From: Liolophura sinensis
Lineage: Eukaryota > Mollusca > Polyplacophora > Chitonida > Chitonidae
Reading direction: 5' to 3'
DNA length: 64,000 nucleotides
Assembly: GCF_032854445.1 (NCBI RefSeq)
Contig: NC_088303.1
Location: forward strand, 13,461,501 to 13,525,500
Shown here one piece after another: positions 9,241-33,800 of this stretch; positions within the stretch are counted from its first letter, which is position 1; each line of letters starts with the position of its first letter. The translations under genes were made by a program, and so were the position numbers. The notes under the pieces were generated by a model that worked only from the letters and a program-made list of their open reading frames with translations, had not been told where the DNA came from and did no database searches.

Positions 9241-10277
9241 AACCAAAGTTACTATAGTATATGTGTTATAGCAACATTAAAACTCATCCTCGTTTTCAAT
9301 AAGAAGTACACCCATAGTTAAGTGTATTAATACGAGTACTCACTTAATTGTCTCCTAATTTCCTTTCAGCTCTTCCTCTTTATTGTTCCATTAATGAACG
9401 ATGCTGTTGGTAGATGGAATTATTAGCAACATAAAGCACTGTGACATCGCTCCATGCGGGGATGAACTGGCTAAACGTCCGATATTTCTTTCATCATGTG
9501 TTATTGTTCACAGTATGGACTGATCCAATAGTACCACATGCACCAGCTGTGAACAAAAAAACAGACACAACAGAGTAGTAGTATGCATATAGATCCAGTC
9601 TTACATGCAGCTTAACAAATAATTGTATACGCACGCACCTATATATATGCCACAGCTGCTGCTCTAGCTGATACATGGCTGTTTTGGTTTTCGGTGCTGA
9701 ATTACTGTCAGATAAATCGTAACATGTCGACACTGCGGCATAATGAGGTCGATACATATTTATACGTTGTGATATATATATAAACTCAGATATGTTGGGT
9801 ATGTATTTATACTCTATATAACAGCGTAAAAACTTTATACAACTAAGAAATTTTAAAGAAAGTTTACCTTTTGCATGCTTGCGTTTAGGATACAGATTTT
9901 TATGTAATTTCTACTTGAAAGGAAAGTTGTTTCTTTTTTTCTTTCTTTTCGGCCTGGCCGTCTTTTAAAACAGTCCGTTTTATATTATGCCAGAGGGTGC
10001 ATTGTGTATACAAATATTACTTACATGACTGGTTCACAATGACAGACATTACATATACACGGTATAAGCGTGTTTACATATATATGGGATTTGAAGTCTA
10101 GTGCCGGTATAACACTTTGTACAGGACTACAGTTATATAGACAGTACATGCTTTAATTACGCAGAGGGTGAAATCACAAACATATAGGCTATAGACACGA
10201 CAAATAAAAAGAGAAGCTCAACATTGACCTCTCTGTATTTTGCTTAAGTTTTCTTTGTCATCATTTGTGAGACCTTG
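9241..10277. other. Intergenic, nothing recognised
   Basis: AT-rich sequence with scattered ATATAT runs near 9770. No coding, RNA or repeat structure that I can support. Confidence 0.45.
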
Positions 10278-24882: not shown

Positions 24883-27800
24883 TCAATGTTTCTTGAGCTG
24901 TGGCAGTGGCTGATCACCTCTGGCACGTCCCTCTGCCATGATGGCCTCAATCTCCTCCACAGTACGAGGAACGCATGTCATCAACTCCATTCCTGTCTCT
25001 GTCACTACAATGTCATCCTCAATACGAACCTAGAAAAATGGAAATCACCATGTGATCCTCCCATTTTCTTCAGGGGCCTGTCATGCAAGTTCTTGCAATC
25101 TTGCATCAGTTTTGATACCACAGTGATAATGTCTGCCAGCAACCTGCGGATGGTCATGGGTTTCCCCTGGGCTTTGCCTGGTTTCCTCCCACCATAATGC
25201 TGGCTGATGTCGTATAAGGGAAATATTCTTGAGTATGGCGTAAAAACACCAATTAAATCAATCAATCAAACAATACCACAGTGACAGTAGTCTTCACTAT
25301 TTGTTATCATGGACTTGCACCCAACATATGTTTTGACTGTATTGTAAAGAGGGCTCTAGGTTCACATATAAAAGAAGAGGAACAAAGTATCATCAGACTG
25401 CTGAAGGCTGGCTCACAACAGTATTATCATTAGTGGTATATGAGGTTACAACATAAGGGCATAGCAATAATGCCAGTGTTAAAGCTGCTTTAAGGTACAT
25501 GTACCAGACTGCAGGAGGTCAAATCACATACAGGTCTCACCCAACTTTAGAAAGTATAACCCCAAGCAATGATACAACAGCTGTTAAAACTACTTTGTAA
25601 ATGACATACACCCATTTGATATGGCACACAAAAGATTGGGGCCTGTGTAAAGTATCACAAAGCAACGTACGCCACTTTTTTATCTTACATTTGTATGATA
25701 TTTTGTATGTCATACCACTGTCCTACCATTGTCCTATATATGTCATTATTGTACATGTACATCATCTTTGTGAAACTAAGTCCAGTTCTTTCCCATATAT
25801 GCTGAAAATGCTCACAAAATCATTTGCAATTTATTCATAAAAGTAAATGAAAGTTTTTTGGTACATACATGTATGCCCAAGTAGGTTTATTAGCAAAACA
25901 CTGAGCATGTAGACACACATACATTAATTTCCACAGGTAAGCTCGGATACAAAATAACCCACTTCTTCAATGTACGGAATTTCCATAGTTACTTCATTAA
26001 CACTGCAGAAACTCTTTCACTCAGTGTTCAATTTTACGCGCCGTGATTTTTGTTGGGTAGAAATTAACTTTACTTCATACGATCTTTTGTAGGATTCATT
26101 GCCACAAAAATAAAACCTCATGCTTAATACTGTCACAATATAGATGAAATTTTGCCAAGTCAGTAAAATTCATGACTGATTCTGCTTTCGAAAAGAAAAC
26201 AAAAGAGAAAAAACTTACCCCTCCAAAATTACGGAACTTGTCAATCTGCTCTTGAACCAGGAACTTGGCCTGATCAGGGTTCTGTAATGCCGCATCTAAC
26301 AACTGAGACCAGGAAAAAGCAGATTTAACATTGGTCAGATAACATTCAAATCAACAAAGCTGTTTTTGTGATTCTGATGACCTTTTCAACACTTTCAACA
26401 AGAAAAGCAGCCTCATCACTCAAACAACAGAATCTACATGTACTGTAAATCTTCAACCTTTTCAACCCCTAAAGCCCAGGGGGCTCCAGTCAGCAAAGGG
26501 AGTGGAGGGGAGGGGGTTGGGTAGGTGGTAGGAAGGGGTCGGTAATGGGCTGTCTCCCACTACCTTATTTCTCCTGCTGGTTGGAACAGTTGTAGGGACA
26601 GCACTATTGGTTGTGTTTTTGCTTTTTGTATACATAAATGTATATAGCCTCTGTTTTCAAACTACATGGTTTATCTTGTTTTATGTATGTTGCTGTAATT
26701 TTTGATTGGACTCTGAAGTACATGTTTCCTATTTCTTGTTTTCTCCGTGAAGGCCTTGGGGAAGAACCTTCCCCAATTTCATTTTAAATTGGCCGACCCA
26801 CCTTCGAAAAATAAAGATATTACTATTTTTATTATTTTCACAGTAGAATTTCTGCAGGTATGAGGATGGCACTAAAAAGGATGCATTTGTGCCAATAAAG
26901 ATACAAGCTTCATAAAACTGGGCAAATTATTTCTCCACACCCCATAGTTGATTCAGAACATTTCAAATATTCATTACAGATGTGATTCCTTCATTTGACA
27001 GCTTAAGGTATATGTAACAGCAGCAGCAGATCAACTTGAAGACGTATTGTGTATTTTTACCAAATTCAAATTAACATAAGTTTGACTATCACAGCAGGTG
27101 AAGTAAACTGAAGTGGACCTCTTCTTGTTTGGTGAGCAATGGATCCTCATCTATTATTCAGTCTGGGTGGGTGTGTATTTGGTATATGTATATCTGATTC
27201 TACAAACCCATATCCCTAAGTAGGCCCCTGGTGAGCACTGTGTACTTTATTTTGACAAACCTCTATGAGTAACTCACTCAACTGATGAAGGTTCCTGGTT
27301 CTATGGTCAGCACTGTGTACCTTATTCTGACAAACCTCTATGAGTAACTCACTCAACTGATGAAGGTTCCTGGTTCTATGGTCAGCACTGTGTACCTTAT
27401 TCTACCAAACCTCTATGAGTAACTCACACAGCTGATGAAGGTTCCTGGTTCTATGGTCAGCACTGTGTAACTTATTCTGCCGAACCTCTATGAGTAACTC
27501 AATCAGCTGATGAAGTAGACCCCTGGTGCTATGGTCAGCACTGTGTAACTTATTCCGCCAAACCTCTATGAGTAATTCACACAGCTGATGAAGGTTCCTG
27601 GTTCTATGGTCAGCACTGTGTAACTTATTCTGCCAAAGCTCTATGAGTAACTCAATCAGCTGATGAAGTAGACCCCTGGTGCTATGGTCAGCACTGTGTA
27701 ACTTATTCCGCCAAACCTCTATGAGTAATTCACACAGCTGATGAAGGTTCCTGGTGCTATGGTCAGCACTGTGTAACTTATTCTGACAAACCTCTATGAG

Positions 27801-30800
27801 TAACTCAATCAGCTGATGAAGGTTCCTGGTTCTATGGTCAGCACTGTGTAACTTATTCTACCGAACCTCTGAGTAACTCACACAGCGGATAAAGTAGACC
27901 CCTGGTTCTATGGTGAGCACCATGCTTCTCTGTAAGATTCGTGCAGTCCTCAGACTTCTCAGCCCTGGCTCATTTACTCTCTCTGTGCCCTGTACGATGA
28001 AAAGCATACAGGTGCATTATTTAAGTTTCTCAAAAATTTTTCTCTTACAAAACAGCAATCATTTTTATGGGTGGCGGAAACATGACTGCCTGGGATAAAC
28101 CACTGACCTTTGGTAAGTTACTGATAAGCTTTCCCACATGTGATGTAGAGACGTGCGCACCAGTTTGAATGAAGACAAGTGTTTGTCATCCAATGTTGGG
28201 CTGCTTAATGACAGGTGGTTCTTGTCCCCTCTTTTAACAAATTCTAGCTGACACGATTTCAGTTAAACTAGTTCACGTAAATCCAATCTTCTCAATTTTA
28301 AGTTTTCAAATTTAACAAACAACTTCGTACAGTAAAACATCTACTGCCAAACATAACTTGTGATATCTAAACTGCTTTATGTAGCAGAAACTGCATTAAT
28401 CCTCTTTGTGCCTCATTTCTGTGGCATTAGCCCATCTCATAAGTTGCTGGGTGATACCCACCTCTGGATAGCCACCAACATCGTGGGTGTCCACCCCTAT
28501 GAAGTGACCCAGCCCATGGGGCATAAAGACCGCCCCAAGTCTCACTTTCATCATGTCCTCCACATCACCCTGTAGGAGTCCATGACGCTTCAGCTCAGTC
28601 AGGTGAACACGGTCAGCCAGCAGGTGCATGTCTACCCAGTTCACACCTAGTACAACACAGTCCACCATCATGTGATAAAAGCCCTCCAGGCTCAATGGCT
28701 GTACATTCTGTCATAGCATAACCTGGTGGATGTACACTGAATGACCATAAAATTTATCCATGACAAACTTGCCCATTTTGAGAGTTCTATTAAGTTTAGA
28801 AAAGCTGTTTTGATGTTTCCTTGGAACATGAGATGATATACTACTGGTAAATTGTAAGTTTCGGCACCAAAAATAATGTTTTGTGACATTTATTTGCTTC
28901 TAAAAATGCGAAATTTCAAGGGTGAAATTTTATGTCATTTAGGGTAAGCACTGGTCTCTCCTGTTAGATCTGAACGCTTTATCGATGAGTAACGTTAGAA
29001 TGAGTGAGGGCTTGGGGTTTAACGTCGTACTTAACAATTTTTCATTCATATGACGACAAAGGAATCCTTAGAGTGCATGTTATGTGCCTCCTTGTTGCAG
29101 GATGGATTTCCACCGCTCTTTTATCTAGTGCTGCTCACTGAGACGCCTTACCGAAGGCAAGAAAGCCGCCCCACCCGAGCCATTATACTGATACGGGTCA
29201 AACCAGTCATTGCCCTATCCCCTTCATGTTGAACGCCAAGCGAGGAAGTTACAACTTCCTCTTTTAAGGTCTTAGGTGTGACTCAACCCAGGACTGACTC
29301 TGGATCTACCGCTCCCGAAGCGGACTCTGTGCCATCAGGGCCAGTAATCATGTTAGAAAGCGTCAATTAAATCCTACATATATACGTTGCATGACAGTCA
29401 CACTAGCAGATGTGTTTGTGCACGTCACACTAGCAGATGTGTTTTTGCATGTCACACTAGCAGATGTCTTTGTGCATGTCACACTAGCAAATGTGTTTTT
29501 GCATGTCACACTAGCAGATGTCTTTTTGCGCATCACACTAGCAGATGTTTTTTGCATGTCACACTAGCAGATGTTTTTTGCATGTCACACTAGCAGATGT
29601 CTTTTTGTACATCACACTAGCAGATGTCTTTTGCACGTCACACTAGCAGATGTCTTTTGTACATCATACTAGCAGATGTCTTTTTGTACATCATACTAGC
29701 AGATGTCTTTTTTTACGTCACGCTAGCAGATGTCTTTTTTTACGTCACGCTAGCAGATGTCTTTTTGCATGTCACACTAGCAGATGTCTTTTACATGTCA
29801 CACTAGCAGATGCCTTTTTGCATGTCACACTAGCAGATGTCTTTTTGCACGTCACACTGGCAGATGTCTTTTTGTACGTATATGTACCTTAAAAAACATT
29901 CTACTCCATTTCATTTAAATGTCATTCACCTGGTTTGACAGCTTCCATGACAGCCCGGCTGGACTTATACACAGTTTCCATAGATGATCTTCTGCTCAGG
30001 TGAAAATTTGCCATTAACTGGGTAACTACAGGTAATGTCAGAGGTGTAGCAGCAGTACTCAGAGCCCATATCAAAAAGGCTGAGGGGAAACGGAAACAAA
30101 TACATCATAGCCATTAGTACACAAAAATATTCTGAAACACAACACGTAGCACATTATTTTTTTTCTCCATTTCAACTGCTCTGTCAAGGTGTAGAACTTT
30201 AACATTATAACATCAACATTTTCTTAACTCAATCTTTAAAACATGATTTCTGTGTATCCTTGTCAAGTCTCCTTGGCATCAAGCTAAAGTTCAATGATAT
30301 GACACTTTGACAGAATAATTCACTCACCACATTTCTCCATCCACCATCTGTTTCTTATTGGGCTCTCCTGCATGCCCGTAGTGGAGGGTAGCTCCATTTA
30401 TACCACTTAGGGAGAAAAGAAATAAACACCATTCAGCAATCCAGCAATCTCACAATATAAGTAATTTATCCATGAGTAAATACTGAAATCCCCTCCCCAG
30501 CTGTCTCGTCACTGCATGTGGTGCTGCGATCGATAGAGGATGAAAATTTCTGCTAGTCTTCAGTGCCCAGTTTTTACACGTTATCCCATATCACACAAAA
30601 TACTCCGCTTTACATTGGACAACAACGGTCACAAGGGGTACAGATATATTCTCCAATCCTGCGGAAAAGATCAAATGTATATGCCAAGTAGGTTATCTCC
30701 CTTTGTTGGGTCCAATGAAGCTCACATCACTGAAGAAATTCACCATTAGATCGGTCTTCTGCACCGAATTGATGGGTTGTGAATGACCAATTCGGTACAT

Positions 30801-33800
30801 GGTGACTCAGTGATAGGATACGCAAATATATGAGTCAATAATCCTCATATTAGGCGAGATGTCAGTCTTTCCCAATATGAGTACTATTAACACCATATAT
30901 CTGCGTATTCTATCACTGAGTAATCATGTAACCAATATTATCCCTGATCAGACAAAATATTCTGCTTTTCATTGGGCAGCAACGGTCGCATGCGATAGAT
31001 ATATGCTCATATCCTGCAGAGGATGTCACATGTGTGCTGAATAGTTATCTCCCTTCCTTCGTCTGTCAAAAAAATTGTTACATCACCTGATAATGAAATT
31101 AAGCTTCTAAATATCAGCCCTAAAAACTTCTTGAAGGCCAAAGGAAAGTGCAGCCAAATATTGCGCACATATATCTCCTTGCAAAAAATCAGCCGGCAAA
31201 GACGTTGTTAAGTGAGGCACTCTCTCACTTCTACACAGATGTGCGAAAAACCGGGCGGCAAACAATAACCGGATGGCGAACAAACCCAGTCTGGCTCACT
31301 GGAAACAATCCATCATGGACTGAATCCCTATCTTAAAGCACCACCTTTCAATACAATCAAAGATGCAATGTTCATCAAGGCTAACAAGAACTGCACAGCC
31401 GCTATGGTGGAGCTGAAGGAGGCAGGACTGAGTGAGACGAAACATCTTCCTCCAATAAATGAGGCTGACAGGGCCAAGTTGTACAGCTCTTTACACATGT
31501 CCCTAAAAAACTCCCTCTGAGCTCTTCAAGAATGTTCAGTTTGATGTGGGATTTTAATTTTGTTGACGTCGAGTAGAAAATACGTGTTCCATGACCAAGT
31601 CCACATTTGTTGCCGACAATGATTTCAAAACTGGACTAAAATTTGTGGCCAAGAAACATGGACAGCTGACGAAAAACCAGAGAGAGACAGACAAGGAGTC
31701 AAGCTCTGGTGTCATGGCCGAGAGTCCAGGTGAATATAAAATATCAATAAATAACAAGTTGATTGTAATCATTAAATTTAGAGAATATCTCTCACAGTTT
31801 TTTTTACCATAAAAAAGTTATATTTATAAATAATTGATATGTAGCTTAAATTCAGGATTTAAATATAAATAAAATAGAACAACAAAATGTATAATGTGTA
31901 ATGTATAATATAATGCCCTGGTTGAATGCACCTATTAAACCCATGTCCAATGGCAATGGGGTTGTGTGTTCAAATCCAGCTCTGGCTGCTTTGCCTCTAG
32001 CTCAAGAGGTTTATCAGGTACCCGGAAAAGGTAGGTGGTACTTGACCCTGAGCACTCTGGTTTCCTCTGCCCAGAAGTCTTACCGCTGTCATACATCAGG
32101 TGGTCATACTTTCATGCTGCATTGCTCCATTATCCTTTGTTCAAACCCTTTTAAACATTAGATATTCAAATGGCATGATTTTGTTAAAATACTGACCAAT
32201 TTTCAAGGTCATGGCTTGAGTAGTCTGTACACAGGGTTAAAATGAAAACACAGCCTCAAAAACGCACGTTCCGGTGACCCACACTGCACCACCTGTAAGG
32301 TGTCATGAGTAGAGCGCGCGCTGCACCAGTGTGACACGCATCAAGGACTGCTGGAAAAAACTTACTCTTAAGGAGACTGGGGACTCAATCAGTTTGTGGA
32401 AGAAACATTTGCACGCTGTCTAAAGAGAAGATGGAGGATCAATTGATCACCTTTTCAAGTAGAGCATCATTTTGAAATGTCCAGAACATGCCTTTTTGAC
32501 TCTATTTTGATTTTGGCCCATGAACAGAAATCTTAAAGGATGAAATTTGGTCTGTATACTTAGGACATAATGGCTTTTGAGTGTGCAACTTTTTAAAAGC
32601 TGACATAAGAGGGTTTCAGAGATTTTGAGTGTCAAAGTATGGCCCATTTTTTTATGCCCACCTGATATATTAAGTAAAACATGTGAGTGAGTGAGTGCTT
32701 GGGGTTTAACGTCGTACTCAACAATTTTTCAGTCATATGACGACGAAGGAATCATTAGGGTGCATGTACATGTAATGTGCCTCCTTGTTGCAAGACGGAT
32801 TTCCACCACTCTTTTATTTAGTGCTGCTTCACTGAGACGCCTTACCGAAGGCAAGTAAGCCGCCCCGCACAAGCCATTATACTGATACGGGTCAACCAGT
32901 CATTGCACTATCCCCTTCATGCTGAACGCCAAGCGAGGAAGTTACAACTTCCTCTTTTAAAGTCTTAGGTGTGACTCGATCAAGGATTGATCCTGGATCT
33001 ATCGGTCCCGAAGCGGAGTAAAACATGTGAGCTCGGTAAATAAATAAATAGATGAGAGTGCATACTGAATTGCTTGAGTAAACGAACAAATAAATATGAA
33101 ATAAAACAAATAAAAAAACCAGTAAAAATCCACCACTTAGAGTAAAGAGTATTTATTTATTTATTTATTTATTTGACTGGTGTTTTACGCCGTACTCAAG
33201 AAGCCAGTACAGAGTAAGTGCTTTCTCACCTTCCACACACACAGGTGTAGGCTAGGTTCCTGGCCCCTCCATAATAATGGCAGTAATGTCGGAAGATGCT
33301 AAAACCGAAACCAACAACGGGGAATTAGGCCCATGGAGCAGAGCGAGGCTTTCATTCCATCAACACTGTAAGAACTGGTATCATTATACATTGAGACGAC
33401 GTCATCAATCATCAACTATCAAATTTATACAATCTTTGCAGGGCTCTTTCTCATATATTTATGGGTCAAAACTTCTTTTCAATGATTTTCAGTGAAAGCA
33501 AGGCTTGCCCCATGTGGACTGTTGCCTGTTTATTGTCACCCAGATCCCAGTCCTACAGATTTAGGCACTGAAAAATGTTTTTTTTGCATACAAATGGAAT
33601 GGATCAGGGCCAATCACTGTCAGGCTCTCTCCCATCCTAACCAACTTCTTCAGGCTCATGTGAAACTGGTTTAGATATAAGAGTGAATGAATAAATGAAT
33701 GCTTGGGCTTAATACTTAACAAATTTATACTTATACTTAATATAATTTTAACATTTGACAACAAGGAGTCATTAGATGTGTGTATATAGACTATGTCTTG

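Follow-up and report, generated by a model that had tools for sequence, protein, structure and literature searches.

The 64,000-nucleotide stretch of the chiton Liolophura sinensis analysed here (contig NC_088303.1, positions 13,461,501 to 13,525,500; hereafter the window, with coordinates counted from its first letter) carries, in an intron of the prolidase gene PEPD, a tandem array whose units copy the end of the preceding exon together with its splice donor. The anatomy of this array, its source in exon 12, the relationships among its copies and its confinement to a single locus are read directly from the assembly. Such tandem repeats of exon-intron boundaries were named "mirages" in amphioxus Adh3 and were later also seen in globins, according to PMC3087553. 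Judged by its letters, the PEPD array is probably a neutral minisatellite of this mirage type, with the native donor of exon 12 most likely still in use.

Source exon, repeat units and growth of the array

PEPD is encoded on the minus strand of the window, where a human PEPD query orders the exon pieces from 40076 to 24934; 15 pieces were placed manually, and exon numbers are our own numbering. Joined exons 11 (part), 12 and 13 align along their full 77 residues to human prolidase (E 4.5e-29). Exon 12 runs on without a break from the upstream coding sequence, the spacing from its donor to exon 13 is that of human prolidase, and the junction reads FIRC + LLDAAL (LLDAAL starting at 26302) compared with human FIDH + LLDEAL. 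Hence, the exon called in the first-pass annotation is the true one and not itself a repeat unit. The stretches with five metal ligands, at what we take to be the ligand positions, are present in the gene, RIEDD among them. Exons 11-13 used as query against the 609-Mb assembly gave three matches, one per exon, and with all four candidates scored this is the only PEPD locus that the search returned.

Tandem Repeats Finder reports a single array at 27229-27920 with a period of 75, 9.1 copies and a score of 1016, periods of 153 and 228 being scored as well. When units are cut at a fixed anchor on the minus strand (Table 1), the nine-unit structure and its origin from the exon, both noticed beforehand by eye, are borne out by repeat finder and unit alignment alike. 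The nine units had all been placed downstream of the exon, however, while eight are intronic (27843-27238; 75 bp long in six cases, 78 bp in two) and the ninth is the exon end itself. Likewise, the low edge assigned at 27218 is slightly exceeded by a decayed further copy, recognized by eye and poorly placed by automatic alignment.

Table 1 Units of the array and associated features of PEPD, in order of transcription
Feature	Coordinates	Strand	Remarks
PEPD exon 12, array source	27882..27989	-	acceptor ...cgtacag then GGC; 108 nt
Native splice donor GTGAGT	27876..27881	-	TGT then GTGAGT
U0, the exon's own copy	27844..27919	-	76 bp, of which 38 exonic and 38 intronic
TAG, first stop in frame once the native donor is skipped	27858..27860	-	after CVSYSEVR
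U1	27769..27843	-	75 bp; donor lost (ATTGAGT)
U2	27694..27768	-	75 bp; donor weakened (TGT then GTGAAT)
U3	27616..27693	-	78 bp; donor lost; one of two best acceptor-like AGs, before 27659
U4	27541..27615	-	75 bp; donor weakened (GTGAAT)
U5	27463..27540	-	78 bp; donor lost; other best acceptor-like AG, before 27506
U6	27388..27462	-	75 bp; donor as native (TGT then GTGAGT); last exon-like base 27428
U7	27313..27387	-	75 bp; donor TGA then GTGAGT; last exon-like base 27353
U8	27238..27312	-	75 bp; donor TGA then GTGAGT; last exon-like base 27278
Eroded ninth copy	27185..27237	-	identity and low-coordinate edge by eye (TGCTCACC..AGGGGCCTACTT..TTTGTAGAATCAG)
PEPD exon 13, acceptor exon of the array intron	26219..26302	-	

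Both the exonic and the intronic half of U0 are matched in all eight full intron units, each differing from it by 7-14 substitutions and a 2-bp indel, plus a 3-bp gap in the 75-bp form; the nearest to the exon copy is U5 (7 substitutions and the indel). The donor hexamer GTGAGT is retained in three of the eight, weakened to GTGAAT in two and lost in three, exactly the tally previously made by eye, and the GT of the splice signal thus survives in 5/8. Five units encode the Glu-type motif (LTIEPG) and three (U2, U3, U5) the Ala-type (LTIAPG). The two length forms had been described as one codon apart and alternating. Neither statement holds in full: the forms are separated by three substitutions as well as by 3 bp, which is no clean codon difference, and the alternation is found across U2-U6 but not elsewhere. 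It stems from the duplication of one 153-bp dimer, of which U2-U3 and U4-U5 are two copies with 3 differences in 153 positions. U7 and U8 differ at 2 positions. A 151-amino-acid open frame through six units (27402-27857) was not accepted as a gene, as it lies in a frame other than that of the exon and stays open because the unit lengths are divisible by three.

Compared with the exon copy, three substitutions and a TA insertion are common to the eight intron units, as expected from one founder copy or, alternatively, from a later change in the exon; the units share a Ser codon (AGC) where the present exon has Arg (CGC). In the likely course of events that we infer, the end of exon 12 and the start of the intron would have been duplicated in tandem once, and slippage or unequal exchange would then have added further copies, among them a second 75+78-bp pair; the internal dimer duplication suggests past turnover of the array. 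The founding duplication may have used TTACA, which occurs in the exon (27935-27931) and again in the intron (27851-27847), 84 bases apart: slippage between these sites would yield a unit exceeding U0 by 8 bp, and this microhomology origin is possible yet unproven. The copies, then wholly intronic, would have drifted with no visible constraint, while the native donor, first in transcript order and yielding the normal 108-nt exon, would still be spliced and the array would leave with the intron.

Splice signals in the copies and their likely effect

Whether the retained donors matter can be approached through their conservation. GTGAGT is kept in 3/8 units, the mean over the 73 hexamer windows of U0 being 2.8/8; for GT the figures are 5/8 and 5.6/8. 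The donor hexamer is thus retained at about the unit average, neither more nor less than others, so that the units look neutral and selection on the decoy donors is unsupported. Splice-site strength was scored with a consensus donor matrix and a crude acceptor matrix.

Several results speak against neutrality combined with undisturbed use of the native donor. With a score of 1.03, this donor is the lowest of 14 PEPD donors, the others ranging from 1.53 to 6.72 on the consensus matrix; the U6 donor is identical to it, and those of U7 and U8 score slightly higher (1.22). By sequence, competition between decoys and native site is therefore conceivable. Of the 74 AGs in the array, those before 27659 and 27506 score highest (1.42) and beat 3 of 13 native acceptors. 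Furthermore, a donor inside the intronic variable number tandem repeat (VNTR) of human ABCA7 is used at some level, as stated in PMC5954066. On the pairing energy with U1 (the splicing RNA, not the unit of that name), however, the native donor of exon 12 is the third weakest of the 14 at -5.5, the two weaker ones having -4.3 and -5.3.

These points carry the rival explanation that survives best, namely that the decoy donors are used appreciably and that copy number thereby tunes the amount of functional prolidase. Use of the donors in U6, U7 or U8 would extend exon 12 by 454, 529 or 604 nt, respectively, and with the native donor bypassed translation would stop at the TAG at 27860-27858, with loss of exons 13-14 and one metal ligand. 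Besides the weak native donor and the three decoys that equal or slightly surpass it, this explanation can draw on donor-carrying repeats in use elsewhere, in IFI6 (PMC4526556) and ABCA7 (PMC5954066). On the other hand, the native donor comes first in order and the decoy-extended exons would measure 562-712 nt. No constraint on the decoys is seen, and their scores are not exceptional, since 67 of the 945 GTs in the gene span outside the array, some being native donors, also score at least 1.03. In addition, mirages with splice signals are reported in PMC3087553 and PMC3902484 to be harmless to splicing in amphioxus. Taken together, appreciable decoy use seems unlikely, and the evidence from sequence leans toward little effect of the array on splicing.

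A second rival sees in the array the beginnings of exon or intron gain, with the exon-like part of a unit being occasionally spliced as a pseudo-exon, a model published in general terms for amphioxus globin mirages (PMC3087553). The units do combine exon-like sequence with donors, and the AGs in U3 and U5 outscore three native acceptors on the crude matrix. An acceptor at the unit start, by contrast, would be poor, because the nine unit starts have 27-40% pyrimidine upstream compared with 47-93% at 13 PEPD acceptors; in donor-keeping units the resulting insert would be 35 nt long and begin, in phase 0, with TGC TGA. The two stronger AGs, with a score of 1.42 that 67 of 875 background AGs also reach or exceed, would define together with the next donor frame-shifting pseudo-exons of 79 nt, and neither 35 nor 79 is divisible by three. 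Pseudo-exon use is hence very improbable, and the neutral mirage with its native donor retained is the preferred reading in what follows.

Boundary repeats in the gene, the genome and other animals

A search of the whole assembly with U6 recovers the exon copy at E 8.7e-14 and 83% identity; therefore, the likeness of array and exon is not due to chance. Neither a unit nor the whole array has a match elsewhere in the assembly, in a search that skips very common words, which leaves the dispersed-repeat alternative raised in the first-pass annotation unsupported and the units exon-derived. An assembly artefact, or a dispersed repeat with a chance likeness to the exon, is a scarcely credible origin for the array, for although the assembly has other oddities (chained mitochondrial copies, one matched partly, and a one-base frame break in exon 10), the 1-11 substitutions between intron units would not result from simple stutter, and the above search gave no match elsewhere.

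Within PEPD, 27 boundaries (14 donors and 13 acceptors, the acceptor of one piece being unplaced) were compared with the window at E <= 1e-3. Tandem copies are found at the exon 12 donor only, eight in number and with 76-89% identity, while a 31-base match of the exon 13 donor at 9921, distant and on the opposite strand, looks incidental. Conversely, 20 array intervals (two overlapping), drawn from 34 tandem-repeat rows, were compared with the PEPD exons. The PEPD array alone shows PEPD exon sequence clearly beyond the exon; of the two other matches, one is a 19-bp two-copy repeat inside exon 1 and the other a 17-base match with E 0.004. Scanning the window against Rfam at gathering scores yielded 0 hits.

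For the genome at large, 79 loci of about 3.2-4.4 kb each were surveyed: 30 of the 99 listed P450 matches, all 19 short-chain dehydrogenase matches and 30 of the 138 listed kinase matches. The test flagged self-matches anchored on one side in the exon, and it recovered the PEPD array as positive control. When only the family match counted as exon, L004 was the single locus flagged out of the 30 for P450. Widening the exon to its open frame added L048 and arrays at L019, L027 and L028, among 49 loci. The 30 kinase loci gave only short repeats, at L061 and L071. L048 (G000:C3, near 19272704) apparently represents an acceptor-side mirage and thus a second boundary repeat of this genome. In its interval 1287-1530, the 3' splice site and the initial bases of a dehydrogenase exon have two copies upstream in the intron, at 1385 and 1287, with a period of 98-99 bp; the repeat is acceptor-side, whereas the PEPD array is donor-side. 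The exon start at 1484 was set from CAG and the reading frame, and the coding stretch matches Pfam adh_short. The self-match covers 121 bases at 77.7% identity (about 104 intron and 16 exon bases, similarity deeper in the exon being weak) and reaches 91.5 bits, whereas 30 shuffles of the locus gave no more than 28.3. Boundary-spanning arrays had been called uncommon, a fair description in view of 1 of 27 PEPD boundaries and roughly 1 of 79 sampled loci, the latter figure being rough, since several loci belong to a single gene, loci with one exon are numerous and boundaries off the open frame are missed.

Four other flagged loci were not taken as boundary repeats. L004 appears to hold, further upstream, a similar coding stretch whose translation resembles that of the exon, L019 is an 18-bp two-copy repeat near the exon end, and L027 and L028 are long arrays by P450 matches in which no copied exon is seen. 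These last two are 35-bp arrays of 28 (L027, 1874-2857) and 42 copies (L028, 1-1467) at most 60 bases from the P450 matches, and their unit sequences differ from each other.

Among known systems, the human IFI6 gene has a repeat unit of 12 nt and its downstream donors are used; the PEPD unit has 75/78 bp, and its decoys are putative donors. Common to both are donors carried by downstream repeat units: in IFI6 (6-16), two such units act as donors and give isoforms (PMC4526556, citing Turri 1995). The VNTR in intron 18 of human ABCA7 likewise begins at and includes the donor of its exon, with a cryptic donor in use one unit further on; its unit, however, is a 25-bp intronic sequence beginning with the donor (PMC5954066), while the PEPD copies are about half exon sequence. 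Closest are the amphioxus mirages, minisatellite-like boundary copies with splice signals in many but not all units, as in the PEPD array. Copies of the BflGb6 mirage are described as 81-100% identical with precisely such partial signal retention, and a globin mirage has 6 and 3 units in two haplotypes with regular splicing undisturbed (PMC3087553). Lancelet PGBD5 repeats have been likened to mirages and troponin C added to the list (PMC3902484); units range from 10 to 160 bp, BflGb9 is included, and donor- as well as acceptor-side cases are known (PMC3087553, PMC3902484). The PEPD array displays boundary-spanning units, partial signal retention and a local tandem arrangement at a single locus. 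By these three structural features it is placed among the mirages and hence belongs to an already described structure type instead of a new one. It differs in host and gene, a mollusc and prolidase as opposed to Adh3, globins and others in lancelets, and while length instability and normal splicing are reported for amphioxus mirages (PMC3087553), the PEPD array is known from one assembly. The literature searches turned up no mollusc mirage.

The interest of the finding lies in the apparent occurrence of mirages outside lancelets, twice in one genome. The second example suggests that boundary duplication, a proposed route of intron gain in lancelets, acts in another phylum. Tentatively, mirages may recur in minisatellite-rich animal genomes, donor-side in PEPD and acceptor-side in L048, without being cephalochordate-only, and boundary amplification may be a general and countable source of alternative splice sites or new introns; the balance of our judgement is still slightly against so broad a claim. 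Irrespective of this, the PEPD array provides a natural test of donor choice within a row of near-identical sites, in which a weak native donor is followed, a few hundred bases downstream, by three decoys that equal or slightly surpass it.

Further observations on the gene and the assembly

In exon 12, Arg-Ser (27924-27929) replaces Pro-Gly of human LQPGMVLTVEPG directly upstream of the source segment of the array. Exon 10 (29930-30079) contains a one-base frame shift after KIIY, the only frame break seen in the gene, which is compatible with an assembly error, an allele or decay. About 50 bases past the exon 10 donor begins a 27-bp minisatellite of 18 copies (29397-29879), for which no match to the PEPD exons was found. 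Two stretches alike by eye, 29020-29340 and 32690-33050, both end in gtacgacgttaaaccccaagc..cactcactc and are of a kind known from mollusc introns.

The 108-kb contig C99 of the assembly (G000) holds seven COX1 copies about 15.5 kb apart, one matched partly, as in chained mitochondrial genomes; one further copy lies in C632. COX1 is open under mitochondrial codes 4, 5, 9 and 14, so that the code does not discriminate between lancelet and mollusc. On the mitochondrial contig, atp6 is found on the cox1 strand, followed by nad5, nad4, nad4L and cytb on the other strand, an arrangement which we take to be of mollusc type and not the lancelet order.

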